Source: Candidatus Woesearchaeota archaeon
GTDB taxonomy: Archaea > Nanobdellota > Nanobdellia > Woesearchaeales > GW2011-AR15
DNA length: 54,384 bases
Direction of reading: 5' to 3'
Assembly (NCBI GenBank): GCA_016935095.1
Contig: JAFGRO010000035.1
Location: 1-54,384, forward strand
Shown piece by piece: positions 154 to 54,169 of this stretch (the stretch's first letter is position 1; every line of letters starts with the position of its first letter). The notes under the pieces were generated by a model. The model did not search any database. It was given only the letters and a program-made list of their open reading frames with translations, and was not told the origin of the DNA. The translations under genes and the position numbers were made by a program.

Positions 154-942
154 TTAAGAGAGGTTAAATGCTCTTTTTATTGCTCTTGTAAAATAAGGGG
201 CAGTTACCCAAACACCCACATCATAAGAGGGATGTACAGATTCATCGTCTGTCAACATAAACAATATCTCCTTGTTATCAACAATAAGAAACCTTGCCTG
301 GGTCTCTTTTTGAACTGTAAGATTAGCTATTTCCTGTAGTTTGCTATATGTAATCATGTCCTGTGCTGGAACAGGTGCTGAAACAGTTATTTTTACGCCC
401 CTCTCCTTTGCTTTTTTCAGGCTTCTTAAAAGGTTCTTTGTTTTTCTTTTCAGTCCTGCTGCAGAAGTCATGAGATGTACTTGTTTTTCTGCTCTTTTAA
501 TCATTGACTCCATATGATTATACAGATTCTCTCTTCCTCTCACGCTTCCTGCCAGATCTGTGGGTTCAATCAAATCAATTCCCTGATTATAGAGCAGTGA
601 AAGTTCTTCCAAAATATTGCTTGCATTTAGTTCTTCTAATTGTTTTTCCCTTTGTTCCGCTTCGTTTTTAACTCTCTTTTTAACCCTCTCAACAACTTCT
701 CCGGGGGGCACTGCAATGTATTTTATGGGTTTGCCGAGCTTCATTACAACAAAGCCCTTTTTTTCCAGTGATTCAAGAACATCATAACTTCTGCTTCTCG
801 GAACATTGGCTATATCTGATAATTCCCCTGCTGTTGATACGCCCCTTGAAAGAAGTGCTGTCCACAATTTGCTCTCATAGGTATTTAAACCAAAATCTTT
901 TAGTTTTGACAAAAAATTTTTTTGTACGATCACATTATACAC
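154..942 (-). CDS. TrmB-family transcriptional regulator
   Basis: A 262-residue protein. Residues about 12-85 form the winged-helix DNA-binding domain of the TrmB/sugar-sensing regulators (LKDFGLNTYESKLWTALLSR, then a recognition helix around NVPRSRSYDVLESLEKKGF). A charged coiled-coil linker follows at about 85-115. The C-terminal effector domain, from about 130, resembles the PLD-like fold of the family (SVRGRENLYNHMESMI, then FLIVDNKEILFMLTDD). The ligand cannot be told; known relatives sense sugars. It is transcribed divergently from orc1 across the candidate origin, and a TATA-like element lies 28-36 bases upstream of the chosen ATG. Confidence 0.85.
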   Translation of the reverse strand: MYNVIVQKNFLSKLKDFGLNTYESKLWTALLSRGVSTAGELSDIANVPRSRSYDVLESLEKKGFVVMKLGKPIKYIAVPPGEVVERVKKRVKNEAEQREKQLEELNASNILEELSLLYNQGIDLIEPTDLAGSVRGRENLYNHMESMIKRAEKQVHLMTSAAGLKRKTKNLLRSLKKAKERGVKITVSAPVPAQDMITYSKLQEIANLTVQKETQARFLIVDNKEILFMLTDDESVHPSYDVGVWVTAPYFTRAIKRAFNLS

Positions 943-1129: not shown

Positions 1130-1150
1130 CCTCCTTTGTTTCCATCGGAA
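1130..1150 (-). promoter_or_regulatory. ORB-like origin recognition box (inverted copy)
   Basis: On the minus strand it reads TTCCGATGGAAAC followed by AAAGGAGG: a TTCC/GGAA dyad and a G-rich string. This is the architecture of archaeal origin recognition boxes bound by Orc1/Cdc6. It lies about 180 bases upstream of orc1 and faces opposite to the copy at 1245. Confidence 0.6.
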
Positions 1151-1244
1151 GTTATTTGTTTAACAAAATTTTGCTTTTTTTGTTTATTTATTATTTAATA
1201 TTTTCTATATTGAAAAAAATTAAATGAATTATTATAATAGGGGG

Positions 1245-1266
1245 TTTCCAAAGGAAAAAGGGGGGG
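1245..1266 (+). promoter_or_regulatory. ORB-like origin recognition box (direct copy)
   Basis: A perfect TTTCC-AAA-GGAAA dyad is followed by AA and a run of seven G residues, the dyad-plus-G-string layout of archaeal ORB elements. It sits about 60 bases before the orc1 start and just upstream of its TATA region, so Orc1 binding here could also autoregulate the gene. Confidence 0.65.
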
Positions 1267-1293: not shown

Positions 1294-1303
1294 CTTTATA
1301 AAC
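1294..1303 (+). promoter_or_regulatory. TATA box of orc1/cdc6
   Basis: CTTTATAAAC is centred 27 bases before the ATG at 1326, which places transcription initiation at or next to the start codon. A probable leaderless mRNA. A second TATA-like string (TATTTATAAATAATATAAAT) begins about 20 bases upstream. Confidence 0.55.
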
Positions 1304-1325
1304 CTATATTTCTTTTGGAAATAGG

Positions 1326-2537
1326 ATGAACCAAAAAGGACTTACAAGCTTTTTTGAAGAATATTTAAGCGAAAAATCATTATTTATCAATAAAAAAGCA
1401 CTGCAATCTTCTTTTACACCCGAACAAGTCCTGCACAGACAAAAGCAGATCGAACAGATAGCGGAAATACTTGCGCCTCTTTTAAAAAAAGAAAGACCCT
1501 CTAATTTATTTTTATATGGTAAGACTGGAACAGGAAAGACTCTGACCATAAAGCACATAACCGCCCAGATGATAAACGTAGCAAAAGAGAAACAGATTCC
1601 TATTAAATTAATCTACTTAAACTGTAAATTAAAAAGGGTTGCAGATACAGAATACAGACTAATAGCTCAAATAATAAGGCTGTTTGGGAGAGATGTCCCG
1701 GTAACCGGGCTACCCACAGACGAAGTGTATAATCTGTTTTTTAATATACTTGAAAATGCAGAAATCTCTCTTTTATTGATTTTAGATGAAATTGACCAGC
1801 TCATAAAAAAAACAGGGGACGAAATCATATATAATCTGACCAGAATTAACAGCGAACTAAAAAAAGCCCAGATTTCGCTGGTCGGTATAAGCAACAGTTT
1901 AATTTTTACACAAAATCTTGACCCAAGAGTAAAATCTTCATTAAGTGAAGAGGAAGTTATTTTTTCACCGTATAATGCATTACAGATACAAGATATCTTA
2001 AAAAAACGAGTAGATCTTGCTTTTAAGTCCAATACATTACAGCAGGGAGTTATTGAGAAATGTGCAGCATACGCAGCCCGCGAGCACGGCGATGCAAGAA
2101 GAGCAATTGAACTTTTGAGGGTTGCAGGAGAACTGGCAGAGAGGAAAAAAAAGAAACTGGTTGATATAACAGACCTGGATGAAGCTCAGGAAAAGATCGA
2201 AAAAGACAGGATACTGGATATTATTAAATCACAACCCAAGCAATCACAATCCGCGCTTTTTTGTATTGTTAATTTATTTGATAAAAACAAACAAAAAATT
2301 TATACCGGCGAAATATATGAGCTCTATAAGAAACTTTGCATAAATCTGAATTTAAGACCGCTGACTCAGAGAAGAATCACAGACATCATAGCAGAGCTGG
2401 ATATGCTGGGAGTAATAAATGCAAACGTAGTTTCAAAAGGAAGATATGGAAGAACAAAAGAAATTTCAATTGCTTTTCCTATTTCTATGGTAAATAAGAT
2501 ACAGAAAATTCTTCAGACCGAGCTTGGTCTTGATTAA
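1326..2537 (+). CDS. cdc6: Orc1/Cdc6 origin-binding initiator ATPase
   Basis: A 403-residue AAA+ initiator. Walker A is GKTGTGKT at 65-72, Walker B is LILDEID around D154, sensor 1 is GISNS, and sensor 2 lies in GDARRAIELLRVAGELAE. The C-terminal ~120 residues form the winged-helix domain that reads origin DNA (LRPLTQRRITDIIAELDMLG). Length is usual for the family. It should bind the ORB-like boxes just upstream and load MCM, whose gene lies at 9.6-11.6 kb. It is the first gene of a probable operon with the two DNA polymerase D subunits (9-base gap to DP1). Confidence 0.96.
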   Translation: MNQKGLTSFFEEYLSEKSLFINKKALQSSFTPEQVLHRQKQIEQIAEILAPLLKKERPSNLFLYGKTGTGKTLTIKHITAQMINVAKEKQIPIKLIYLNCKLKRVADTEYRLIAQIIRLFGRDVPVTGLPTDEVYNLFFNILENAEISLLLILDEIDQLIKKTGDEIIYNLTRINSELKKAQISLVGISNSLIFTQNLDPRVKSSLSEEEVIFSPYNALQIQDILKKRVDLAFKSNTLQQGVIEKCAAYAAREHGDARRAIELLRVAGELAERKKKKLVDITDLDEAQEKIEKDRILDIIKSQPKQSQSALFCIVNLFDKNKQKIYTGEIYELYKKLCINLNLRPLTQRRITDIIAELDMLGVINANVVSKGRYGRTKEISIAFPISMVNKIQKILQTELGLD

Positions 2538-2546
2538 ATTAGTAAA

Positions 2547-4073
2547 ATGCAACCCTCAGCACATTATAAAAAAATAGTTAATCTTTTATTGAAACAGGAT
2601 TATTTAGTGAACCCCGCAGCAACAGCACCCGATAAAGAACACAAACTGGGCTCTTTTTTGCAGGTTCTGTTAAAAAACCCAACAAAAGCCAGCAATGACG
2701 TGTTTCTCATAACAGACGAGTTTATGAATTCTTTGCCTATTTCAGAATTAGAAAAAGAGGAAAAAACAAGCGTTTCAGCCCCTCTTTCCGAAGAAATAAA
2801 CACCCCGCCCCCTAATTTTAAAGTCTTAATTAATTATAAAGAAAGGGCAAGCAAACAGTCAGTAGACGAATTTGTTAGATACTATAGGAGAAGATATAAT
2901 TCTTTGCTCCAATTATTAAAGACACATAACAACCTTAATGATATTATATCTATTTCCAGAATTAAAAATATGGATAATAAAGAAAAAGTTAGTTTTGTTG
3001 GTTTGGTTACAAGTAAAACCCTTACGAGAAATAATAACTTTAGTCTAACCGTAGAAGATCTTTCATCTTCAATCAAAATTATAATTAATAAAAATAACAA
3101 TGATATATACAATTTAGCAAAAGAAATCTGTTTAGATGAGGTCTTGGGGTTTGGGGGCGTTGCCGGGAACAATGTTGTTTTTGTTAATGAATTGGTTTGG
3201 CCCGAAGTTCCCCTGACAAGGGAACTTAAAAAAACAGAAGAGGAAGAATATGCCCTTTTTATCGGAGATTTACATATTGGTTCAAAAGCATTTCTAAAAC
3301 AAGAATTTGAAAATTTTATTAAATGGTTAAATGGTGAAGGGGAAAACAATGAGCAGAGAGAGATTGCCAGAAAGGTTAAATATGTGTTTATTGTTGGGGA
3401 TTTGGTGGATGGCGTGGGGATTTATCCGGGCCAAGAGGAAGATCTGGAAATAAAAGATTTATATGATCAATACGATAGGCTTTCTGAATATTTAAATCAA
3501 ATCCCCCAAAACATAAATATATTTCTCTGCCCGGGAAACCACGATGCTGTTAGACTATATGAGCCACAGCCCCTGTTAGATGAAAACTTTGCAAAATCCG
3601 TTTATGCTTTGCCCAATGTTAATGTTGTTTCAAATCCCTCTTTGATAAATATAGGGGTAACCAGAGAAAACCCCGGAATTAATATCTTTCTATATCACGG
3701 CTTTTCCTTCCCTTTTTATGCAGACACAGTAGAACCAATAAGAAAGGAGGGGGGTCTTAGAAGAACAGACCTGATTATGAAATTTCTTTTAAAAAAAAGA
3801 CATCTTGCGCCTACCCACGGGTCAACATTATATATTCCAAATTATGAAATTGACCCCTTATTCATTAATACAATACCAGACATATTTGTTACAGGCCACG
3901 TACATACAACACATGTTGAAAAATATAGATCTATTAATTTACTTAATTGTTCTTGCTGGATTTCTCAAACAAAATATCAGGAAAAAGTAGGTTTAAAACC
4001 AGAACCCGGAAGAATAATTCTTGTTAATTTAAAGACAAGAGCATCAAAAATAATTAAATTCATAAAAGATTAA
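2547..4073 (+). CDS. polB: DNA polymerase D small subunit DP1 (3'-5' exonuclease)
   Basis: A 508-residue proofreading and structural subunit of the archaeal replicative polymerase PolD. After a divergent N-terminal region and an OB-fold (about 140-225), a calcineurin-like phosphoesterase domain shows all metal-binding motifs: GDLH at 240-243, GDLVDG around 290, GNHD at 330-333, YHGFSF, and GHVH at 450-453. The nuclease should therefore be active, unlike the dead eukaryotic B-subunits related to it. The gene lies between orc1 and DP2 and its stop codon is one base before the DP2 ATG, implying co-expression of the two subunits. Confidence 0.96.
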   Translation: MQPSAHYKKIVNLLLKQDYLVNPAATAPDKEHKLGSFLQVLLKNPTKASNDVFLITDEFMNSLPISELEKEEKTSVSAPLSEEINTPPPNFKVLINYKERASKQSVDEFVRYYRRRYNSLLQLLKTHNNLNDIISISRIKNMDNKEKVSFVGLVTSKTLTRNNNFSLTVEDLSSSIKIIINKNNNDIYNLAKEICLDEVLGFGGVAGNNVVFVNELVWPEVPLTRELKKTEEEEYALFIGDLHIGSKAFLKQEFENFIKWLNGEGENNEQREIARKVKYVFIVGDLVDGVGIYPGQEEDLEIKDLYDQYDRLSEYLNQIPQNINIFLCPGNHDAVRLYEPQPLLDENFAKSVYALPNVNVVSNPSLINIGVTRENPGINIFLYHGFSFPFYADTVEPIRKEGGLRRTDLIMKFLLKKRHLAPTHGSTLYIPNYEIDPLFINTIPDIFVTGHVHTTHVEKYRSINLLNCSCWISQTKYQEKVGLKPEPGRIILVNLKTRASKIIKFIKD

Positions 4074-4074
4074 A

Positions 4075-7000
4075 ATGAATGTAAGCCAGGAAATAAAAAA
4101 TTACTTTGAAAAAATCGAGCAAAGATTGAACATTGCCTATGAAATCTGTACTGAAGCAAGACAAAAGGGCTTTGATCCAGAATTAAAAGTAGATATACCT
4201 ATTGCAAAAAGAATTTCTGAACGCGTTGAAGGTTTAATAAGTGCAGTTGCTCCCCAGATATTACATAGCGGCGTTGCAAGAAGAATTGAAAAATTAGAAA
4301 AAGAATATGGCTCATTAGATTGGAGAGTAGCATTAAAAATAGCAGAAGAAGTTGCAAAACAAAAATTCTGTAAATTTAAGACAAAGATTAAAGCAATGGA
4401 AACAGGCATCAGGGTGGGGTTATCTTATATAACCCTTGGCGTTATTTCTGCTCCTTTGGAAGGATTTATAGAACTAAAGATTAAAAAAACAAAAAATAAT
4501 GAAGACTATCTCTCAATTTTATATGCCGGGCCAATAAGGGCCGCAGGAGGAACAGCTGAAGCAGTTTCATTAATAATAACAGACTATATCAGATTAAAGA
4601 TGGGTTATTCCAAGTATGACCCGACAGAAGAAGAAATTAAGAGGACCATTACTGAAATAAGGGATTATCATGAAAGAGTAACTAATTTGCAGTATTTTCC
4701 TTCTGATGAAGAAATAGCTTTTTTAATAAAGAATCTGCCAATTGAAATAAATGGCGATCCGACAGAAGACAGAGAAGTTTCAAACTATAAAGATTTGCCC
4801 CGGGTTGAAACCAACAGAATAAGGGGTGGGCTTTGTCTTGTCTTGGCTGAGGGTCTTGCCCAAAAAGCAAAAAAAACACATAAACAACTGAAAAGATGGG
4901 GGCATAGCTTTGGTCTGGACTGGGACTTTTTAGATGATTTTTTGAAACTGCAGAAACAAATTAAAGCAAAAGCAAAAACAGAAAATATAGAAGAGACTAA
5001 ATTAACCCCCAATTACACTTATATAAAAGATCTTGTTGCTGGCAGACCAATTTTATCACACCCTTTGAAAGTGGGGGGTTTTAGATTAAGATATGGGAGG
5101 ACAAGGTTAACTGGATTAGCAGCAGCAGCAATACATCCTGCCCTTATGATCATTTTGAATAAATATATTGCTACAGGCACACAATTAAAAATTGAAAGAC
5201 CGGGCAAAGCAGCAGCAATAGTTCCCTGTGATTATATAAATGGCCCAACGCTTAAACTTATTTCGGGCGATGTTATTGAAATAAATACAGAGCAAGAGGC
5301 AAAACAACATCTTAACAGCATAGATAAAATACTCTTTTTAGGAGACATCTTAATAAATTATGGAGACTTTTCTGAGAACGGCCACATGCTTGTTCCTTGT
5401 GGTTATTGTCCTGAATGGTGGATTAAAGAGTTTGAAAAAGCAGTAGTATCCTTATTCGGTTCTTTTGATTTAGACAAATTAGAAGAGATATTAAATGTTA
5501 AAAAATCCCATTTAACTATCTTGTTTTCTAAACCAATAGAAACAAAAATCTCTTTTCGCCTGGCCTTAAATATCTCTCATAAATTAAAGATTCCCCTGCA
5601 TCCTGATTTTATATATTATTGGAATGCAATAAAACCCCCCGAATTATTTTACTTAATAAGGTGGCTTAAGACCTCAAATATAAAAAAACAAGAAGATAAA
5701 ATAGAAAAATTAATTCTGAAAACAGATTTGAACGCAAAAAATATATTAGAGCGAATTGGGTTGCCGCACATCTTAGTTAACAAAGAATTTATAGTTATAG
5801 AAAAAACCCATGCTGAAACTTTATTCTATTTTTTTGTTAATAATAAAAACCTTGGAGGAACCATCGACAAACCATTTGCGGCAGAAACCCCTACAGTGGA
5901 TATTTTAAATTCCTTATGTGATGTTTGTATTAAAGATAAGGGGGGCGTTTTTATAGGAGCGAGGATGGGGCGACCAGAAAAAGCAAAGATGAGAAAACTT
6001 ACAGGCAGCCCGCATGTTCTTTTTCCAGTTGGTGAGCAGGGGGGCAGATTGAGATGTATACAATCTGCTTTAGAAAAGGGGAAGATAAAATCGGATTTCC
6101 CTATTTTTTTCTGTAAAAAATGTAATCATGAAACAATTTACTCTGTCTGTGAAGAATGTAATACTAAAACACATAAAAGATATTATTGCAGAACCTGTGG
6201 TATTTTAGATAAACCCTGTGAAAAATATGAAGATACACATGGAGAAAAAAAAAGACATATTTCACACACCTATATGAAAAGGGAGATTAATATTAATTAT
6301 TATTTTAAAAAAAGTCTATTAAAACTAAATACAAAAATATATCCAGATTTAATTAAAGGTGTAAAAGGAACGAGCAACAAAGAACACATTCCGGAACACT
6401 TAATAAAAGGGATTCTTAGATCCAAACACAACATCTATGTAAATAAAGACGGAACTACTAGGTATGATATGATTGAGCTGCCAATAACCCACTTTAAGCC
6501 TTCCGAAATTAATACTTCAATCGAGAAATTACATGAATTAGGATATGATTATGATATGTACGGTAAAGAGTTAACAAGCAAAGAACAAATTATTGAAATT
6601 AGGCCACAGGACCTGATATTGCCTGACTGTACGGAATCTCCGGATGAATTGTGTAGTGATGTATTATTTAAAATAGCAAACTTTATAGATGAACTCTTAG
6701 TAAAACTGTATGGTCTTGATCCTTATTACAATCTTACTTCTAAAAAAGATTTAATAGGCAAATTAGTTGTTGGGCTTGCACCACACACTTCGGCAGGTAC
6801 AGTTGGAAGGGTGATTGGTTTTTCAAAAACACAGGCAATGTTGGCACACCCCCTTTTTCATGCGGCAATGCGCAGGAATTGTGACGGCGACGAAGCCTGT
6901 ATAATTTTATTAATGGATGCATTGCTAAACTTTTCAAGGTCATATCTCCCTGACAAAAGGGGGTCAAGAACAATGGATTCTCCGTTGGTTCTAACATCAA

Positions 7001-7632
7001 TTTTAATTGCAAAAGAAGTGGATGATGAAGTGCACGGGATGGATTTAGTGGATAATTATCCTCTTAACTTTTATGAGGCTGCTGAGCAATTTAAATTTCC
7101 CTGGGAAGTGAAGGTATTGCAAATAGATAATTATTTAGATACTTACAAACAGTACGAGGGAATGAAGTATACCCACAAAACATCTAATTTAAATCAGGGC
7201 GTCCTTTGTTCATCATACAAGCTTTTGCCGAGCATGGAAGAAAAACTAAAGGGCCAGATGGACCTTGCTGAAAAAATATCTGCTGTTAATGAAATTGATG
7301 TGGCAAGACTTGTTATTGAAAAACATTTTTTAAGGGACATACGTGGAAATTTGAGGAAATACTCTACACAACAGTTTAGATGTGTAAAATGCAATACAAA
7401 GTACAGGAGACCCCCTTTAGTGGGTAAATGTACAGAATGTGGCGGCAGAATCATTTTTACTATTTCAAAAGGTTCAATTGTTAAATATGTTGAACCAAGC
7501 CTGAGTCTGGCAAGGAGGTATAATGTGTCCCCATATCTAAGCCAGGTATTGCAATTAACAAAAAATGAGATTGCCTCGGTTTTAGGAAAAGAAAAAGAGA
7601 TTCAGCAGGGTCTTGGCAAATGGTTTGGCTAG
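4075..7632 (+). CDS. polC: DNA polymerase D large subunit DP2 (catalytic)
   Basis: A 1185-residue catalytic subunit of PolD. The double-psi beta-barrel active site signature NCDGDE is at 935-940, with the two Asp residues (937, 939) that hold catalytic magnesium. Zinc-binding knots are visible (CKKCNHETIYSVCEEC, then CRTCG around 700; CVKCN...CTECGG near the C-terminus). The last residues, QQGLGKWF (1177-1184), fit the PCNA-binding PIP box QxxLxxWF. DP2 genes of many archaea carry inteins; none interrupts this one. Its stop interlocks with that of aIF2-beta in a shared CTAG. Confidence 0.97.
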   Translation: MNVSQEIKNYFEKIEQRLNIAYEICTEARQKGFDPELKVDIPIAKRISERVEGLISAVAPQILHSGVARRIEKLEKEYGSLDWRVALKIAEEVAKQKFCKFKTKIKAMETGIRVGLSYITLGVISAPLEGFIELKIKKTKNNEDYLSILYAGPIRAAGGTAEAVSLIITDYIRLKMGYSKYDPTEEEIKRTITEIRDYHERVTNLQYFPSDEEIAFLIKNLPIEINGDPTEDREVSNYKDLPRVETNRIRGGLCLVLAEGLAQKAKKTHKQLKRWGHSFGLDWDFLDDFLKLQKQIKAKAKTENIEETKLTPNYTYIKDLVAGRPILSHPLKVGGFRLRYGRTRLTGLAAAAIHPALMIILNKYIATGTQLKIERPGKAAAIVPCDYINGPTLKLISGDVIEINTEQEAKQHLNSIDKILFLGDILINYGDFSENGHMLVPCGYCPEWWIKEFEKAVVSLFGSFDLDKLEEILNVKKSHLTILFSKPIETKISFRLALNISHKLKIPLHPDFIYYWNAIKPPELFYLIRWLKTSNIKKQEDKIEKLILKTDLNAKNILERIGLPHILVNKEFIVIEKTHAETLFYFFVNNKNLGGTIDKPFAAETPTVDILNSLCDVCIKDKGGVFIGARMGRPEKAKMRKLTGSPHVLFPVGEQGGRLRCIQSALEKGKIKSDFPIFFCKKCNHETIYSVCEECNTKTHKRYYCRTCGILDKPCEKYEDTHGEKKRHISHTYMKREININYYFKKSLLKLNTKIYPDLIKGVKGTSNKEHIPEHLIKGILRSKHNIYVNKDGTTRYDMIELPITHFKPSEINTSIEKLHELGYDYDMYGKELTSKEQIIEIRPQDLILPDCTESPDELCSDVLFKIANFIDELLVKLYGLDPYYNLTSKKDLIGKLVVGLAPHTSAGTVGRVIGFSKTQAMLAHPLFHAAMRRNCDGDEACIILLMDALLNFSRSYLPDKRGSRTMDSPLVLTSILIAKEVDDEVHGMDLVDNYPLNFYEAAEQFKFPWEVKVLQIDNYLDTYKQYEGMKYTHKTSNLNQGVLCSSYKLLPSMEEKLKGQMDLAEKISAVNEIDVARLVIEKHFLRDIRGNLRKYSTQQFRCVKCNTKYRRPPLVGKCTECGGRIIFTISKGSIVKYVEPSLSLARRYNVSPYLSQVLQLTKNEIASVLGKEKEIQQGLGKWFG

Positions 7633-9002: not shown

Positions 9003-9614
9003 TTATTCTAATATTTTAACTCTTCCGGGTTTTAATTCAAAGATTTCTCCTTCTTCTAGTAAATTATTTATTATTTGCTCTGTTTGTTTGAATTTGCAGT
9101 TAGAGATAATTTCAGCAATATCAACCCCTCCTCCTATATCTGCTTTTCTTATCAGTCCCAGAATAAGTTCATAAAGGTTGTTATTATATGTCTGATTATT
9201 TTCAAGAGGTTTACTTTTTTGGACAATTTTTTTTTCTTTACTTAGTTTCAATTCAAGTTTCCTTAATTCCATCCATTTCTTGTTTTCTATTTTTTTAATA
9301 ATTTCAGGGACAATATAGGTTTCGTTGTTCCATGTTCTTGGCTTTCCGATAATAAGAACAAGGTCGCCAACATCAATATTTGGGGAAGTTTCATTAAAAA
9401 ACCTTAGTTGGATCCTTCCAGAACCATCATCTACAATAAGTATGTTCTCATTTTTACTGAATGCAACAACAAATCCAATTAGATTTACTCTTGAAATATT
9501 TCCCTGGGGGCAAATAATATAACTGGGTTCCCATCCTGATTTTTTAATGAATTCACCATTTAATAAATCAGATATTTTTATTTTATGAGCTACAAGTCTT
9601 TTTATCTGTTCCAT
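9003..9614 (-). CDS. RPA-like single-stranded DNA-binding protein (RPA32-type)
   Basis: A 203-residue protein. An OB-fold occupies about 35-110 (ISRVNLIGFVVAFSKNENIL, IVDDGSGRIQLRFFN, DVGDLVLIIGKPR). A charged linker leads to a winged-helix-like C-terminal domain (about 145-203, ADIGGGVDIAEII...IINNLLEEGEIFELKPGRVKIL). This order is that of RPA32/RPA2. It is the last gene of the leftward tbp-mcm-rpa operon and starts two bases after the mcm stop codon, so single-strand binding and helicase activities are probably made together. No large RPA subunit is in the window. Confidence 0.85.
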   Translation of the reverse strand: MEQIKRLVAHKIKISDLLNGEFIKKSGWEPSYIICPQGNISRVNLIGFVVAFSKNENILIVDDGSGRIQLRFFNETSPNIDVGDLVLIIGKPRTWNNETYIVPEIIKKIENKKWMELRKLELKLSKEKKIVQKSKPLENNQTYNNNLYELILGLIRKADIGGGVDIAEIISNCKFKQTEQIINNLLEEGEIFELKPGRVKILE

Positions 9615-9616
9615 TT

Positions 9617-11641
9617 TTATATTCTTTGAATAAATCCTCTTTTAGGTTCAAAAATATCACCGTGTCTTTTAAGTTTTTCAATAGCTTCTATTACTTTATT
9701 TTCATTAATGTCTTTGGATGAGGCTTCAATAATTATGTCTTCAATAGGAATTATATTATTCCCTGTTTTAGATTCTATGGAAAGGAGAATTTCCCTGATA
9801 ATTGATATGTGGCTTCTTTCAGAAGCAGAAATCCCCGTAGAAATTCTATCAATATCAATTTTACCTGTTTCAGGGTCTACCCCTACCTGCGAAAGGCAGA
9901 AATGAACAAGATCAATAGCATGTTTTGCATCTTTCTTTGTTACTTTGTCCGAGAGCCTGATTCTTGCAGAAGCCTCTGCAAGTCTTACCAATGCTTCTAA
10001 TTGTCTGGCTGAAATAGGAATAGTTCTCACACCGCCTTCTTCAGTTGAACCAAGAGATCTCATTTTTACATAATAATTTTTTATTTCTTCAAATGCATTA
10101 TCACTTAATCTCGGAAAAACATTCTGTCTGGCATAGGCAAAGTATTTTTTGAGAGTATTAGTATCTATATCTGTTTCTTCGGTGTCAGGGTTTTGATGCA
10201 ACATTAAGATAAAATTAGCCATTTTTTCATCCTGGATTTTGTCAGGCAAATCTTTTATAGGAAATATCAAGTCAAATCTGTTGATTAAGGTTGGCGGCAA
10301 GTCTATTTGTTTTGCAATTATTTCATAAGGATCAAATCTGCCGAATTTGGGATTGGCGGCAGCCAAAACAGTGGTTTCAGCCCTTAACGTGGCCTGAATA
10401 TTTGCCTTTGATATTGTTACAGTCTGTTGCTCAAGAGCTTCATGCATTGCACTTCTGTCTTCTCTGGTCATTTTATCTAATTCGTCAATACAACATAATC
10501 CTCGGTTAGTTAAAACAAGAGCACCTGCCTCAAGCGCATATCCTCTAATAAAATCATCTTTTACAACTGTGGCAGTTAATCCCGCGGCAGATGCGCCTTT
10601 ACCTGAAACATATCTTGCCTTGGGCACAGTTATGCTGATTCTTTTGAGTAATTGGGATTTACCTGCTCCCGGATCTCCTATTAATAGTATATGTATGTCC
10701 CCTCTTGTAATTGATCCTGTTTTTTTTACTTTTCTTACGCCCCCCATTGCCTGTAATATGAGGGCTTCCTTGATTTTTTCATGACCAAAAATATTAGGGG
10801 CAATTGAGTTGACAAGCATTTTATAAATTTGAGGGTTTGCTGCAATTTCCTTTATTTTGGTTTTTTCTTCTTCACTAATCTGAATTTCAATAAAATCTTC
10901 CTCAATAGGTTCAACATAATTTGCTTCAACCATTAAATCAAATCTGGTCAGTTTTCCACCTTCTTTTGCAGGAATGGGAACTTCCTTTAAAATCCCATTC
11001 ACAAGAATTTTACTTCCGGGGTTGGTTCTTTTTTCAGTAATTGGCGAGACAAGGTCACTTTTTAAAAATATATTTAGTCTTTTGGGTTGTTCTCCGCCAT
11101 CAAGATCCTCTGGAGTCTCTTCCAAAACAATTTTTTGTGCGTCAACAAGTTCTTTACTGACTAACCTGAATTTTCCTTTTCTTCCGCACCCACACCTGCT
11201 GGGTTCTTTAAATTTTGAATCTATTTGTAAAACAGTTATTATATTGCCGCAGCTCGGGCACTCAAATCTTGCACTTGTTACCTGTGGTCTGACATCTGAT
11301 TTTTGTCTGACAATCCCCTTCATGGAGAGATATTTATTTAGGTGTTCACTTCTTATGTCTCTAATCAGAATACTTTGACTTAAGGGTAAATTAGAAAATC
11401 TCAATTTGAAATTCTTTACATCTTTATCAAATTCAAATTGTTCAATAGCAAGCTCTCCTGCTTTTATTACTTCTTCTGGGTTTTCTAGAAGCTCATCTGC
11501 AAGAACCGGATCAAATTTAGAAAGCTCTGTAAATGAAAGTATTATGAATTGTTGACCCTTTCTTATTTTCTCAGCTAAGGTTGCATAATAATTTTTTTCT
11601 AAAAATTCTTGAAACTTTCTAATAATTGTTGTTGCATCCAT
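9617..11641 (-). CDS. mcm: replicative minichromosome maintenance helicase MCM
   Basis: A 674-residue, full-length MCM. The N-terminal region has a zinc finger (CPSCG around 130, then a second pair in CGCGRKG). The AAA+ core has Walker A GDPGAGKS at 322-329, Walker B in CCIDELDKM, sensor 1 in LAAANPKFGRF, and the arginine-finger motif INRFDLIF. A winged helix closes the protein (about 600-674). It forms the hexameric 3'-5' helicase that Orc1/Cdc6 loads at origins. It sits in the same leftward operon as TBP and the RPA32-type protein, about 10 kb from the candidate origin. Confidence 0.97.
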   Translation of the reverse strand: MDATTIIRKFQEFLEKNYYATLAEKIRKGQQFIILSFTELSKFDPVLADELLENPEEVIKAGELAIEQFEFDKDVKNFKLRFSNLPLSQSILIRDIRSEHLNKYLSMKGIVRQKSDVRPQVTSARFECPSCGNIITVLQIDSKFKEPSRCGCGRKGKFRLVSKELVDAQKIVLEETPEDLDGGEQPKRLNIFLKSDLVSPITEKRTNPGSKILVNGILKEVPIPAKEGGKLTRFDLMVEANYVEPIEEDFIEIQISEEEKTKIKEIAANPQIYKMLVNSIAPNIFGHEKIKEALILQAMGGVRKVKKTGSITRGDIHILLIGDPGAGKSQLLKRISITVPKARYVSGKGASAAGLTATVVKDDFIRGYALEAGALVLTNRGLCCIDELDKMTREDRSAMHEALEQQTVTISKANIQATLRAETTVLAAANPKFGRFDPYEIIAKQIDLPPTLINRFDLIFPIKDLPDKIQDEKMANFILMLHQNPDTEETDIDTNTLKKYFAYARQNVFPRLSDNAFEEIKNYYVKMRSLGSTEEGGVRTIPISARQLEALVRLAEASARIRLSDKVTKKDAKHAIDLVHFCLSQVGVDPETGKIDIDRISTGISASERSHISIIREILLSIESKTGNNIIPIEDIIIEASSKDINENKVIEAIEKLKRHGDIFEPKRGFIQRI

Positions 11642-11671: not shown

Positions 11672-12211
11672 TTATTGTACTTTCTTAAGATTAATAATTA
11701 ATTTGTCAAGCGCTTCGTCGACTTCTTTTTCGCTCTTGGTTCCAGTACATACAATCTTCCCATTACTAAACAACAAAAAGGTAGCTTTTGCTTCATCAAG
11801 TTTGTAAACCAGACCCGGGAACTGTTCTGGTTCATATTCAGTATTCTCTAATTTCATAGCTAAAACATTTAAATTCAAGTCCATGCCTACACTTCCGGAA
11901 GCGACAATATTCTGAATATTGATTTTTGGTTTAATATTGATTTCAATGCCTATTTTTTTAAGACTTTTTATAATCTTTTCAATTGATTCTTCAACCTTTT
12001 CCATTGATCTGGCACCCGTACATACAACCTTGCCAGAGCTAAAAATCAATGCAGAGGTTTTTGGTTCTTTGATCCTTATTACCAGACCCGGGAACTGTTC
12101 TGGGTTATACTCTGTATTGCTTAATGTTGCAGCCATCTTCTCTAAAGGAATATCATGTTCTAGGCTAGTAGAAACAACAATATTTACAACCTGGATATTT
12201 TTTTGTGCCAT
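11672..12211 (-). CDS. tbp: TATA-binding protein TBP
   Basis: A 179-residue protein made of two direct repeats of the TBP saddle (about 7-88 and 98-179). Each contains the TEYxPEQFPGLV core and the SSGKVVCTG or SNGKIVCTG strand. It positions RNA polymerase with TFB at archaeal promoters, consistent with the many TATA boxes visible in this window. No acidic tail follows the second repeat. It is the first gene of the operon with mcm and rpa. The start has a strong GGGGGT Shine-Dalgarno site, so unlike many genes here its mRNA has a leader. Confidence 0.97.
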   Translation of the reverse strand: MAQKNIQVVNIVVSTSLEHDIPLEKMAATLSNTEYNPEQFPGLVIRIKEPKTSALIFSSGKVVCTGARSMEKVEESIEKIIKSLKKIGIEINIKPKINIQNIVASGSVGMDLNLNVLAMKLENTEYEPEQFPGLVYKLDEAKATFLLFSNGKIVCTGTKSEKEVDEALDKLIINLKKVQ

Positions 12212-48605: not shown

Positions 48606-49580
48606 ATGAAAGATTTCATAAATTTATCTCACGGAGCAGGCGGCAAAGAGATGCATGAACTAATCAAAAGCTTTAATTTTTCAAACAGAGCGCAATGGCA
48701 GGATTATGATGATGATTCCTCTACTCTGGATATTGGCAATAATAAAAGGCTGGTTTTTACAACAGATTCTTTTACAATTAATCCTATTTTTTTTCCGGGA
48801 GGGGATATTGGCCATATTGCGTTCTGCGGGACTGTAAATGATCTTGCAGTCCTTGGTGCTGTTCCTCTTGGTTTGTCTCTTTCACTTGTTATTGAAGAGG
48901 GTTTTTCTGTGAAAGATTTAAAAAAAATAATTAATTCAATAAACCTGCTTTCTAAAAAAACAAGTGTTCCAATAGTCACAGGAGATACAAAAGTCATGGA
49001 AAAAAACAAGATAGATAAAATCATAATTAACACGTCTGGAGTTGGTATTATCAATGACAATGAGTTATTAACTAAAAAAATCAAAACAGGGGACAAAGTA
49101 ATTATATCAGGAGGCATTGGAGAGCATGCTGTTGCACTGCTTTCAAAAAGGTTTGATTACAAAACAAGCATTATCACAGATTCTAAACCTCTTGTAGAGG
49201 AAATCCAGGCAGTGAAGGATATTATAAAAATTGCAAAAGACATAACAAGAGGAGGTCTTGCTGCAAATCTGAATGAAATATCTGAAAAAAACAAGATAGG
49301 AGTTCTTCTGGATGAGGAAGCAATACCTGTAAAAAAAGAAGTCAAAAAATTAAGCGAGATGCTCGGCATTAATTTATATGAATTAGCTAGCGAGGGAAGA
49401 TTTATTTGTATAGCCTCTCCGGAAAATGCAGAGAGCGTTGAAAAAAGATTAAAATTATTCAATAAACAGGCATCAATAATCGGAACTATTACTGAAAATA
49501 ACAAATTAATTATCCAGACAATTCTCGGCAAGAGGATTTTACCAATGCCTATTGGAAGAATTATTCCCAGGATTTGTTAA
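48606..49580 (+). CDS. hypE: hydrogenase maturation protein HypE
   Basis: A 324-residue PurM-like ATPase. LSHGAGGKEMHELI at the N-terminus, VFTTDSFTINPIFFPGGDIG, CGTVNDLAVLGAVPL, and KDITRGGLAANLNEI bind ATP. The C-terminus ends PRIC, with the terminal Cys that is carbamoylated by HypF and dehydrated to thiocyanate. It overlaps no other hyp gene; hypA starts two bases later. Confidence 0.96.
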   Translation: MKDFINLSHGAGGKEMHELIKSFNFSNRAQWQDYDDDSSTLDIGNNKRLVFTTDSFTINPIFFPGGDIGHIAFCGTVNDLAVLGAVPLGLSLSLVIEEGFSVKDLKKIINSINLLSKKTSVPIVTGDTKVMEKNKIDKIIINTSGVGIINDNELLTKKIKTGDKVIISGGIGEHAVALLSKRFDYKTSIITDSKPLVEEIQAVKDIIKIAKDITRGGLAANLNEISEKNKIGVLLDEEAIPVKKEVKKLSEMLGINLYELASEGRFICIASPENAESVEKRLKLFNKQASIIGTITENNKLIIQTILGKRILPMPIGRIIPRIC

Positions 49581-49581
49581 A

Positions 49582-49929
49582 ATGCACGAGCTTTCAATAA
49601 CAAAAGATTTAATAGAACTGATTAAATCTGAATGCAATAAAAATAAAATTACAAATCCTAAAAATATAGTTTTGGAATTAGGCAGCCTGACAACATATAA
49701 AAAAGAACCGATATTGTATTATTACAACATATTGAAAAAAGAGCAGCCATTACTTCATAACTCAGCTTTAATTATTAATGAAATCCAGGCAGAAATGCAA
49801 TGCAATGGCTGCAATAAAAAAAGCAAAATCAAAACAATATATGATATTTTTTGCCCTTGCTGTGATTCAACTAATATTGAAATAATTCAAGGCAGAGATA
49901 TAAGGCTTTTGGAGATTCAGACAGGTTGA
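49582..49929 (+). CDS. hypA: nickel insertion protein HypA
   Basis: A 115-residue protein beginning MHELSITKDLIELI; His2 and Glu3 bind nickel. The zinc site has CNGC and CPCC in the usual CxxC...CxxC order. An in-frame ATG at 49552 would add ten residues inside hypE and hide the essential MHE start, so 49582 is used. It hands nickel to HydA together with HypB. Confidence 0.94.
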   Translation: MHELSITKDLIELIKSECNKNKITNPKNIVLELGSLTTYKKEPILYYYNILKKEQPLLHNSALIINEIQAEMQCNGCNKKSKIKTIYDIFCPCCDSTNIEIIQGRDIRLLEIQTG

Positions 49930-49933
49930 TATT

Positions 49934-50650
49934 ATGTGTAAAGAATGCGGTTGTGAAAATCATAAACAGGAGACACCTAAAAGAACCAGGATTGATAAAT
50001 CTTTAAATGAAATAAATGATACTCTAGCAGAACAGATTTCAGAATTTCTTAAAAAAAACCAGATATTCTGCATTAATATCATGGGTTCACCCGGTTCTGG
50101 CAAGACAACTGTTATCGAGCAGATTTCCGAATTTCTTAAATCAGACGAAATTGCAGTGATTCAGGGCGACCTTGAGTCAGATATTGACAAAAAAAGAATT
50201 GAAAAAAGACACATAGAAAGCTATCAGATTAACACCCATAGTGGGTGTCATTTAAATGCGCATATGATAAATCAGGCATTACCTAATATTAAATTGGATG
50301 GAAAAAAATATCTTGTAATAGAGAATGTCGGTAATCTCGTGTGCCCGGCAGGAGTAAAAATCGGCCAGCACATGAATGTACTTGTAAGTTCAGTTACCGA
50401 AGGTGAAGACAAACCAGCAAAATACCCTTTTATTTTTATGGATGCACAAATGGTTATTCTTTCCAAAACAGATCTGAGTGGAGTGATTGAATTCAATGAA
50501 ATTAATTATATCAATGAAATCAAAAATATTAATCCAAAATGTAGAATTATCAGGGCGTCCTTAAAAAACTTAAAATCATTTAAAGAAACAGCTGCTTATA
50601 TTAAACACCAAAGGAATCATTTTTTTGATGTTTTTCACGATCATAATTAA
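49934..50650 (+). CDS. hypB: nickel-inserting GTPase HypB
   Basis: A 238-residue GTPase. N-terminal CKECGCENH is a metal-binding motif. Walker A is GSPGSGKTT near 55, QGDLESDIDKKRI is switch I, the metal site lies in HSGCHLNAHM, ENVGNLVCPAGV follows, and SKTDL is the guanine-specificity motif. It closes the maturation set hypFCDEAB plus protease. It converges with the cupin gene and the two stop codons share TTAA. Confidence 0.95.
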   Translation: MCKECGCENHKQETPKRTRIDKSLNEINDTLAEQISEFLKKNQIFCINIMGSPGSGKTTVIEQISEFLKSDEIAVIQGDLESDIDKKRIEKRHIESYQINTHSGCHLNAHMINQALPNIKLDGKKYLVIENVGNLVCPAGVKIGQHMNVLVSSVTEGEDKPAKYPFIFMDAQMVILSKTDLSGVIEFNEINYINEIKNINPKCRIIRASLKNLKSFKETAAYIKHQRNHFFDVFHDHN

Positions 50651-50942: not shown

Positions 50943-52172
50943 TTATTTATGGAAGGGATGCTTTGTAATCAGAGAAAGCCCTGCTGCAATTAGACACACA
51001 ATACCTGCCGGAATAAATGCATAGAGATAACTCCCAGTTAAATCAAAAACACTTCCTCCCAGAATTGGTCCTACAATACCGGCAACACCATATGAAGTGA
51101 AAACAAAGCCATAGTTCACCCCCAGGTTTTGTGTTCCGAAAAAGTCTACAGTCGCAGAGGGGAATAATGCGAAATTTCCCCCAAAATTAAAGCCAACCCA
51201 GGCAGCAGCAATGCCTAACAATAACGGAGAAGCGCCCATCTTCATCAGAGATAGCATCATTCCTCCCTGTAGAAGGAACATGATGAGCATTGATTTAGTC
51301 CTTCCTATCCTGTCTGAAATCATCCCCCACATAATTCTTCCTGCAGCATTAAATAAAGCCAGAATTCCTACAGCACTTCCTGCTACTTCAGCACTCATTC
51401 CTGAAAATACCCCAAAAGGTTTAAGGTTGCCGATTACAAGTAATCCGGCAGCAGCTCCGAACATATACATTGACCATAAAGACCAGAACTGAGATGTTTT
51501 AACCATTTCCTGCCATGTAAAGTTCTCTTTAGATGCTTTTTTATTTGTCTTTTTTTTGGCTGCTTTCCATCTTTTAGGTTTCCAATTTTTAGGAGGATTT
51601 GATAATGTCAATGAACCGGCACTTACAGCAATCAGAAAAATTAGCCCAAGATAAAGGAAAGTCTGGATTACTCCGTAAGAACCAATTAATGAAGTAGCTA
51701 ATTTTGCAAAAATCCATGCTCCCCCCCCGAAACCGGCTACTGCCAATCCTGTTATTAAACCGCGTTTATCAGGAAACCATTTGACACATGCTGCTATTGG
51801 GCACACATAAGCAAAACCAATTCCTGCTCCGCCTATTAGCCCGACTGTTCCGGTAATAAAATAGAATATTAAACTGGGTGGTACATATACAGCAAGTGAC
51901 CCCGCAAGGATATAGCCTAAACCAAGCACAATTCCCCCTGTAATTGCAACTTTTTTCGGGCCAGCTCTGTCCTGCCATTTACCTGCAAAAATCATTACTA
52001 ATGCAAAAGTAGCCAGTGCAACTGAAAAAATAATCTGGGTTTGAGTTCTTGTGAAATGAAAAGTATCTTCAAGAGGTTTTACAAACACACTCCAGGAGTA
52101 AATTGCTCCAAGGCAAATCTGGACAAGCAGCGCTCCTGCAACAACCAGCCATCTTTTAGTTTCTTTTTTCAT
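50943..52172 (-). CDS. OFA-family major facilitator transporter (oxalate/formate antiporter-like)
   Basis: A 409-residue protein with 12 hydrophobic segments. The N-terminal GALLVQICLGAIYSWSVFVK and the loop WQDRAGPKKVAI match the OFA subfamily. A cytoplasmic basic loop (KRWKAAKKKTNKKASKE, about 200-215) separates the two halves. It probably exchanges small organic anions. The gene starts two bases after the acs stop, so acetate or a related acid is a likely substrate; the subfamily name does not establish oxalate or formate here. Confidence 0.9.
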   Translation of the reverse strand: MKKETKRWLVVAGALLVQICLGAIYSWSVFVKPLEDTFHFTRTQTQIIFSVALATFALVMIFAGKWQDRAGPKKVAITGGIVLGLGYILAGSLAVYVPPSLIFYFITGTVGLIGGAGIGFAYVCPIAACVKWFPDKRGLITGLAVAGFGGGAWIFAKLATSLIGSYGVIQTFLYLGLIFLIAVSAGSLTLSNPPKNWKPKRWKAAKKKTNKKASKENFTWQEMVKTSQFWSLWSMYMFGAAAGLLVIGNLKPFGVFSGMSAEVAGSAVGILALFNAAGRIMWGMISDRIGRTKSMLIMFLLQGGMMLSLMKMGASPLLLGIAAAWVGFNFGGNFALFPSATVDFFGTQNLGVNYGFVFTSYGVAGIVGPILGGSVFDLTGSYLYAFIPAGIVCLIAAGLSLITKHPFHK

Positions 52173-52174
52173 TT

Positions 52175-54169
52175 TTATTGTGTGTCTCTTCCTTCAATAA
52201 GTTCGTCGACCACAGATGGATCTGCTAATGTTGTTGTATTGCCTACGCCTTCTTTGTCAGCGCCTTCTGCAATCTTTCTCATGATTCTTCTCATGATTTT
52301 CCCTGAGCGGGTTTTAGGCATACCGTTACAGAACTGTATCCTGTCTGGTTTGGCAATAGGTCCGATTACTTTAGTTACAGTAGCGAGTAATTCTGCCCGT
52401 AACTCTTCTTGAGATTTTTTTGAGTTTGCATTCAAAGTTACAAAAGCATATAATCCCTGCCCCTTGATCTTATGAGGAATTGGGACAATGGCAGCTTCTG
52501 CAACATCAGGATGGCTTACAAGTGCAGATTCAACCTCCGCAGTTCCGATCCTATGCCCTGACACATTTACCACATCATCAATTCTTCCCATTAGCCAGAA
52601 ATCTCCGTCTTTATCTATGCGGGCACCGTCTCCTGTAAAGTACACTCCGGGAAATCTTGTCCAGTAAGTTTCCTTCCATCTCTGATGATCTCCATAAACC
52701 GTTCTCATCATTCCCGGCCAGGGTTTTTTAATGATTAAATATCCGCCTTCATTGGCTTTGGCAGGACTTCCATCTTCTTTAATTACCTTTGGTTCAATTC
52801 CTAAGAAAGGTCTTAATGCAGCCCCTGGTTTAAGTGTCATTGCACCTGGCAGCGGGGTAATTATTACACCCCCTGTTTCAGATTGCCAATAAGTATCTAC
52901 AATAGGACATTTTTCTTTACCGACTGTTTTATGGTACCACATCCATGCTTCTGGGTTAATTGGTTCACCCACACTTCCCAATAATCTTAATGAACTCAAA
53001 TCACGTCTAGTTACCCATTCATCACCCATTGCAGCAATTGCTCTTATTGCAGTTGGAGCAGTGTAGAAAATATTAATACCATATTTTTCAACTACTTCCC
53101 AGAATCTGTCTTTATTTGGATAATTCGGCACGCCTTCAAACATCAATGAAGTTGCGCCATTTGCCAAAGGCCCGTATACAATATAACTATGTCCGGTAAT
53201 CCAGCCAATGTCTGCAGTGCACCAATATACATCATCATCTTTATAGTCAAAAATATATTTGAATGTTGTGGTAACATATAGTAGATAACCTGCTGTTGTA
53301 TGAAGGACTCCTTTTGGTTTTCCTGTAGTTCCGCTTGTATACAAAATAAAGAACGGGTCTTCTGCATCCATAACTTCTGGTTCACAAAAAGCAGTGATAT
53401 CTGGTTCGTCTATTTCCTCATGCCACCAGGTATCTCTACCATCCATCATCTCAATATCATTTTCAGCTCTTTTTACTACAATGGCTGTTTTTACACCAGG
53501 ACAGTCTTTTAATGCTTCATCTACACTTTTCTTTAGATGTACTACTTTTCCTCTTCTTAAAGAGCCATCACTTGTTAATACAACCGACGCATCACAATCA
53601 AGAATCCTGTCTTTTAGCGATTCAGCAGAGAATCCTCCGAATACAACAGAATGAACAGCGCCGATTCTTGCACAGGCAAGGATAGAAATTGCCAGTTCAG
53701 GAATCATTGGAAGGTAAGTTATAACTCTGTCTCCTTTTTTAACTCCTTTTTTTTTTAAAACATTTGCAAACTTACACACAACATAATGAAGCTGCTGGTA
53801 AGTATATGTTTTAACATCTCCCGGTTCACCCTCCCAGATAAGTGCAGCTTTATTTTTTCTCCATGTTTTCAAATGTCTGTCTAAACAATTATAAGTAACA
53901 TTTAATTTTGCACCTTTAAACCAGGTGTGCTTGGCCTCTTCAACATCCCATGTGAATATATTATCGGGATCTGGCTTTTCATACCAGTCAATTAATTTGC
54001 CAGCCATTTTATTCCAGAATTTTGGAGGATTTTCAATTGATTCCTTATACATTTCTTTATATTCTTGCATTGATTTGATATGTGCTTTTTCACTAAATTC
54101 TTTTGATGGTGGAAATCTTCTTTGCTCATCCATTAATGAAGTTATAGAACTTGGTTTTTTTGAATTCAT
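52175..54169 (-). CDS. acs: acetyl-CoA synthetase, AMP-forming
   Basis: A 664-residue enzyme of full length. Motifs are: ILYTSGTTGKPKGVLHTTAG (P-loop-like A3), VDTYWQSETGG (A5), YFTGDGARIDKDGDFWLMGR (A7), DDVVNVSGHRIGTAEVESAL (hinge A8), and PKTRSGKIMRR (A10 Lys, acetylation target). WWHEEID and the Trp in YWQSETGG fit acetate rather than longer acids. It activates acetate at the cost of two phosphates. It heads the leftward operon with the OFA transporter and the cupin. Confidence 0.95.
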   Translation of the reverse strand: MNSKKPSSITSLMDEQRRFPPSKEFSEKAHIKSMQEYKEMYKESIENPPKFWNKMAGKLIDWYEKPDPDNIFTWDVEEAKHTWFKGAKLNVTYNCLDRHLKTWRKNKAALIWEGEPGDVKTYTYQQLHYVVCKFANVLKKKGVKKGDRVITYLPMIPELAISILACARIGAVHSVVFGGFSAESLKDRILDCDASVVLTSDGSLRRGKVVHLKKSVDEALKDCPGVKTAIVVKRAENDIEMMDGRDTWWHEEIDEPDITAFCEPEVMDAEDPFFILYTSGTTGKPKGVLHTTAGYLLYVTTTFKYIFDYKDDDVYWCTADIGWITGHSYIVYGPLANGATSLMFEGVPNYPNKDRFWEVVEKYGINIFYTAPTAIRAIAAMGDEWVTRRDLSSLRLLGSVGEPINPEAWMWYHKTVGKEKCPIVDTYWQSETGGVIITPLPGAMTLKPGAALRPFLGIEPKVIKEDGSPAKANEGGYLIIKKPWPGMMRTVYGDHQRWKETYWTRFPGVYFTGDGARIDKDGDFWLMGRIDDVVNVSGHRIGTAEVESALVSHPDVAEAAIVPIPHKIKGQGLYAFVTLNANSKKSQEELRAELLATVTKVIGPIAKPDRIQFCNGMPKTRSGKIMRRIMRKIAEGADKEGVGNTTTLADPSVVDELIEGRDTQ

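Follow-up and report, generated by a model that had tools for sequence, protein, structure and literature searches.

A candidate replication origin beside orc1 in Woesearchaeales, with a third origin recognition box at the initiator promoter

Archaeal origin recognition boxes (ORBs), where their function has been established, bind monomers of the initiator Orc1-1 with a defined polarity and steer the MCM helicase to an unwinding element (PMC12141716). The subject of this paper is a candidate chromosomal origin of this type, made up of two ORBs (boxes L and R), the AT-rich spacer between them, and the adjacent orc1/cdc6 gene. It lies on a 54,384-nt stretch of DNA from Candidatus Woesearchaeota archaeon (GenBank assembly GCA_016935095.1, contig JAFGRO010000035.1), referred to here as the window. 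The window is an entire contig (C55) of a source genome of 1.77 Mb in 82 contigs that is 95% complete.

How does this locus compare with the origins that have been described? First, oriC1 of Haloarcula hispanica, like the window, has two inverted ORBs with outer G-strings (CCCCCC on the left, GGGGGGGG on the right) that flank an AT-rich region beside the initiator gene, and loss of either ORB or of its G-string abolishes or impairs that origin (PMC3936714). The window differs from it in having a third ORB, which overlaps the orc1 promoter. Second, in Sulfolobus/Saccharolobus oriC1, an AT-rich unwinding element lies between ORB2 and ORB3 (PMC12141716), which are in inverted orientation, as are the boxes on either side of the AT-rich spacer in the window. 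However, the ORBs of Sulfolobus number three and are accompanied by a ucm motif, and there are three origins, whereas in the window two ORBs flank the spacer. Third, in the oriC-cdc6-DP1 region of Pyrococcus the origin immediately precedes cdc6 and polymerase D genes are close by, an arrangement that the window shares (PMC4010727; PMC2643942). The Thermococcales also have an ORB and mini-ORBs within the DP1 gene itself (PMC2643942), and there is therefore precedent for ORBs outside origins; the DP1 gene of the window has no convincing ORB, whereas relatives of the window have extra ORBs upstream of the genes for TATA-binding protein (TBP) and MCM. No analysis of a DPANN origin turned up in the open-access literature searched.

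Architecture and conservation of the locus

The preliminary description of this DNA proposed a replication origin with two outward-facing boxes, each a dyad plus a G-string, separated by about 90 AT-rich bases and placed at set distances from orc1. All of these elements are borne out (Table 1). Boxes L and R each consist of TTCC-N3-GGAA followed by a 3' G-string, and they lie in a 383-bp intergenic gap (943-1325) directly before orc1. The A+T content of the spacer is reached by just 0.29% of 93-bp windows in the contig. When the 1.77-Mb genome is scanned with the ORB pattern TTTCCNNNGGAAANNAAGGRGG, boxes L (one mismatch) and R (two mismatches) are the top two matches, and the other 17 matches all have three mismatches. 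A weight matrix trained on 68 boxes from other genomes, with the source genome excluded, places box R first over the 54 kb, a further box described below (box P) second, and box L third. Another matrix match, at 7096-7117 within the DP2 gene, was taken as chance.

Could boxes L and R themselves be fortuitous, that is, TTCCN3GGAA dyads that happen to stand beside G-runs in AT-rich sequence? The dyad by itself is not significant, since three copies occur in the window against 1.36 expected, and to that extent the sequence accommodates such an explanation. The full boxes do not: they are the two best in the genome, none of 20,000 order-1 Markov simulations of the intergenic region contained two matches scoring at least 14.9, and the conservation of the arrangement in dozens of families refutes coincidence. 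We give this explanation practically no credence.

Conservation was assessed in 60 relatives that span 51 families of one order, the Woesearchaeales, with Orc1 proteins mostly 52-73% identical. The outward-facing pair around an AT-rich spacer is present at 35 of 47 Woesearchaeales loci, a set that includes the window and in which some loci are cut by contig ends. The spacer exceeds its surrounding locus in A+T content at every one of the 35 loci where both boxes occur, even where the locus itself has just 44% A+T. The length of the spacer in relatives ranges from 63 to 635 bp while the boxes persist; the constraint therefore falls on the boxes. The outward pair is also found in other orders of the class. 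A set of 66 named DPANN loci, each with 600 bp or more of upstream sequence, has the pair in 47 cases, as against 0/66 when the sequences are reversed as a control, and the groups concerned include Pacearchaeota, Parvarchaeota, Aenigmatarchaeota, and Nanoanaerosalina. The ORB-AT-ORB-orc1 architecture is real and is conserved across an archaeal class, in the same orientation as in the dissected H. hispanica oriC1, and the match to characterized archaeal origins that had been claimed for it holds.

Architecture and conservation together support the assignment of the locus as a candidate replication origin. It is very likely, in our judgment, that the site is a chromosomal origin of the archaeal oriC1 kind, with Orc1 acting at boxes L and R, repressing its own gene at box P, and in related families probably acting at TBP-MCM as well. 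The identity of the origin is read from the architecture and its conservation, and its use is inferred from them. By homology with known systems, Orc1, the product of the neighboring gene, would occupy boxes L and R as monomers in a set orientation and, in its ATP state, would melt the 93-bp spacer. It would then recruit MCM at the spacer, such that two forks depart in opposite directions.

Table 1. Features of the candidate origin and of the replication genes near it (window coordinates)
Feature	Coordinates	Strand	Description
Left ORB (box L)	1130..1151	-	CTTCCGATGGAAACAAAGGAGG (read 1151 to 1130); G-string outward (left); matrix score 14.9
AT-rich spacer, putative duplex unwinding element	1152..1244	.	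93 bp, 86% A+T
Right ORB (box R)	1245..1266	+	TTTCCAAAGGAAAAAGGGGGGG; G-string outward towards orc1; matrix score 24.7, highest in the window
TATA box of orc1 (read from sequence)	1295..1302	+	TTTATAAA; overlaps G-string end of box P
Third ORB (box P)	1300..1321	-	TTTCCAAAAGAAATATAGGTTT; between TATA box and orc1 ATG (1326); matrix score 17.7, second in the window
orc1/cdc6 initiator gene	1326..2537	+	403 aa; AAA+, lid, winged helix; PF09079, PF22703; NF001625 above cut-off
Polymerase D small subunit (DP1)	2547..4073	+	PF00149, PF04042; NF003118 439.7 bits, just below cut-off of 445
Polymerase D large subunit (DP2)	4075..7632	+	TIGR00354, 1276 bits
OB-fold (RPA-like) gene after MCM	9003..9614	-	PF01336
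MCM helicase gene	9617..11641	-	PF00493; no upstream ORB
TATA-binding protein (TBP) gene, first of MCM operon	11672..12211	-	PF00352

The initiator and the box in its promoter

The closest solved structures to the window Orc1 are those of Saccharolobus Orc1-1 (2qby_A, 342 bits) and Aeropyrum Orc1 (2v1u_A, 308 bits), with Orc1-3 far behind (147 bits); its domains are Cdc6_lid and Cdc6_C. Aeropyrum Orc1 reads the ORB with four arginines, R345, R346, R367, and R369 (PMC9738581). A structure-relative alignment, in which the offset is 12 residues, pairs these with R349, R350, K371, and R373 of the window protein, meaning that three of the four are identical and the fourth is changed from arginine to lysine. 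R349, R350, and R373 are invariant across 15 Orc1 sequences, and K371 is nearly so. As judged from its sequence, the window Orc1 is of the Orc1-1 type, with ORB-reading residues of the initiator type rather than the Orc1-2 type.

The source genome also encodes a second Cdc6-like AAA+ protein of 355 aa (G000:C39:5520-6587; L041), which is ~30% identical to Orc1 and lacks the ORB-reading residues. Most of the 60 relatives also have such a copy, at ~30% identity. This paralog is possibly a non-initiator regulator like Orc1-2. The idea that it marks a second origin was rejected: the sequence upstream of its gene resembles an operon junction with no ORB evident, and its winged helix is without the RR and GRYG residues.

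While the two boxes of the preliminary description are real, that account overlooked both a third, box P, which sits on the promoter of orc1, and the ORBs located away from the origin. Box P was found again in a scan of the source genome with the consensus of its relatives. When 22 cases are aligned, box P is in most of them directly adjacent to TTTATA or a near match to it, and the ATG usually follows 4-14 bases past the box. The box ends in GGTTT or GGTAT instead of GGGGT because those bases double as the TATA box. Box P is thus placed where the initiator could block the promoter of its own gene, and this placement recurs in relatives. The position points to box P as probably an operator for autorepression of orc1: bound there, Orc1 would block TBP/TFB or RNA polymerase, so that its own level would be capped once the boxes are filled. 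A partial parallel is Orc1-2 of Saccharolobus islandicus, a DNA-damage regulator, which like the Orc1 proposed here is an Orc1-family protein with binding sites in promoters, including its own (PMC9738581). Orc1-2 differs in being a non-initiator that reads ANTTTC elements, whereas the boxes of the window type are initiator-type ORBs common to the origin and to promoters. No report of an initiator-type Orc1 that autorepresses its gene, or of ORBs at tbp-mcm, was found in the open-access literature searched; subscription literature lay outside the search.

The gene divergent from orc1 (154-942, minus strand) encodes a TrmB-family regulator, and in one relative (G037; L159) a TrmB homologue is also close to the ORB/MCM locus.

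Boxes outside the origin

Where else do ORBs occur? Ten relatives contributed 1.2 Mb of sequence in stretches picked for skew rather than for ORBs, some of which contain orc1 or its surroundings. All 13 ORBs that score at least 20 in this sample are located either at orc1 or in front of TBP(-MCM), and the idea that orphan ORBs are random matches was rejected on this basis. For genomes outside the window's family, a genome-by-genome tally built on a TBP search shows an ORB no more than 450 bp upstream of TBP or MCM in 33 of 47. None of nine genomes of the window's own family, the source genome included, has ORBs upstream of TBP-MCM. There are one to four boxes per site. These point towards the gene in 45 of 46 cases, and 11 of 13 neighboring pairs are spaced 81-86 bp apart. 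In one genome where TBP is located elsewhere (G015), the boxes sit upstream of MCM. A second origin at TBP-MCM is disfavored because the boxes there are arranged as direct repeats, with no inverted pair among them. Orc1 of the related families probably also works at the ORBs upstream of the TBP-MCM operon.

The source genome has a single good orphan ORB (C69:24906-24927), which is upstream of a gene for a 161-aa coiled winged-helix protein. Most members of the window's family share an ORB of this type together with 6-9 copies of TGAGAC/GTCTCA within 300 bp upstream, and the tandem TGAGAC pattern occurs just once in the source genome, at this ORB. The site in the source genome (G000:C69:24906-25495; L040:7907-8499) has the ORB and seven TGAGAC/GTCTCA copies, some of them 11 bp apart. 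In its sequence, the locus resembles an iteron or centromere-like site. A fold search with the winged-helix protein, which is of no known family, gave generic winged-helix matches alone, none with E <0.001.

It is possible to read the distal boxes, both at TBP-MCM and at the winged-helix locus of relatives, as sites that titrate Orc1 rather than regulate the adjacent genes. The datA locus is a titration site of this sort for bacterial DnaA, and the ORB cluster downstream of Haloarcula oriC2 is another. In H. hispanica, ORB-rich regions of a similar kind titrate Cdc6E (PMC3936714), and a site with one to four boxes is compatible with such a role. On the other hand, the 45:1 bias towards the gene and the regular 81-86 bp spacing fit promoter control better than a sink, as do boxes that accompany MCM where it is unlinked to TBP. 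For the distal boxes, titration is the chief competing explanation, and we regard it as rather unlikely.

The gene neighborhood of the origin is largely as first described: orc1 is followed by DP1 and DP2, and MCM is nearby. The gene that had been named as RPA is a putative RPA gene, recognized by an OB-fold match (PF01336), and the TBP gene that heads the MCM operon can now be added. A search of the window against Rfam gave no match. At the far end of the window, a GC-richer segment (50943-54169, minus strand; ~0.42 vs 0.33) with reversed skew carries an MFS transporter gene and an acetyl-CoA synthetase-like gene, and it may be a recent acquisition. Beside it (48606-50650, plus strand), translations read by eye include HypE-, HypA-, and HypB-like hydrogenase maturation genes, which are notable for a woesearchaeon.

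Origin use and the wider role of Orc1

Is the conserved architecture used as an origin? There are several reasons for caution. First, box L, with its score of 14.9, falls below the typical boxes of relatives (median 28.2). Second, a conserved origin can be dispensable: in Thermococcus kodakarensis, replication is reported to proceed in the absence of the presumed origin and of Cdc6 (PMC5663688). Third, five relatives, including one complete genome, show no switch of GC skew at orc1 (G006, complete; G022, G021, G030, and G025), and in another (G054) the trend is opposite. In three of these five (G021, G022, and G030) the skew is strong (0.2-0.5) and has the same sign on either side of orc1. Skew was measured here as third-position GC (GC3) skew, with gene strands kept apart, in spaced stretches of the ten relatives. 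An inflection of GC skew at the locus, the check proposed in the preliminary description, is found in some relatives: the sign switches at orc1 in the complete genome G019, where it is mostly negative on the left and mostly positive on the right, and in G028, and there is a step at orc1 in G058. Rearrangement or weak bias may account for the relatives that show no such switch. In the window, skew to the right of the boxes is mildly positive; on the left there is nothing to compare it with, since the contig stops 1.1 kb beyond box L. With relatives so mixed, a clean verdict from skew was dropped.

These results bear on a different reading of the boxes, in which they are operators alone: Orc1 would mainly regulate its own gene and its neighbors, and replication would start elsewhere or without a fixed origin. 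Such a role would be in line with the position of box P over the orc1 promoter, with the frequency of ORBs upstream of TBP-MCM in other families (33/47), and with the flat skew over orc1 in several relatives. It sits poorly with the anatomy of the locus, since boxes inverted to face outward, with a spacer between them that is AT-rich in 35 of 35 cases, even in GC-rich genomes, are what an origin looks like, whereas the boxes at TBP-MCM are direct repeats. Two further points count against it, namely the skew switches at orc1 in G019 and G028 and the initiator-type, not Orc1-2-type, ORB-reading residues of Orc1. We consider it improbable that the boxes serve as operators alone, and prefer an origin at which Orc1 would be both initiator and regulator.

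What are the implications of an ORB network? The origin itself is of a known kind; what sets it apart is the third box on the initiator promoter together with the network of boxes, and an ORB regulon appears to be undescribed. A broader proposal, to which we give an even chance of being right, is that Orc1 of the Woesearchaeales and their relatives has a further function as a dedicated regulator of transcription. A single type of box would serve the origin, the repression of orc1, and the control of TBP-MCM through boxes about eight DNA turns apart, while the window's family would have lost the TBP-MCM branch and kept an ORB at the single-copy winged-helix locus with TGAGAC repeats. How archaea, which lack cyclins, couple replication to gene expression has been called unclear in a recent review (PMC7617429). 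If the proposal is true, origin licensing would be tied to the supply of the helicase and of a general transcription factor.

In bacteria, DnaA has boxes at the origin, in the promoter of its own gene, and at other loci. DnaA and Orc1 are unrelated proteins, so the likeness is one of functional analogy alone, and the regulation by Orc1 is predicted. The architecture provides a class-wide, testable definition of the origin in a large group of uncultured archaea, one that can serve to estimate growth rates from read depth and to construct vectors. Moreover, if one type of box marks the origin as well as the promoters of the initiator gene and of helicase/TBP, archaea would have their own equivalent of the DnaA regulon of bacteria.
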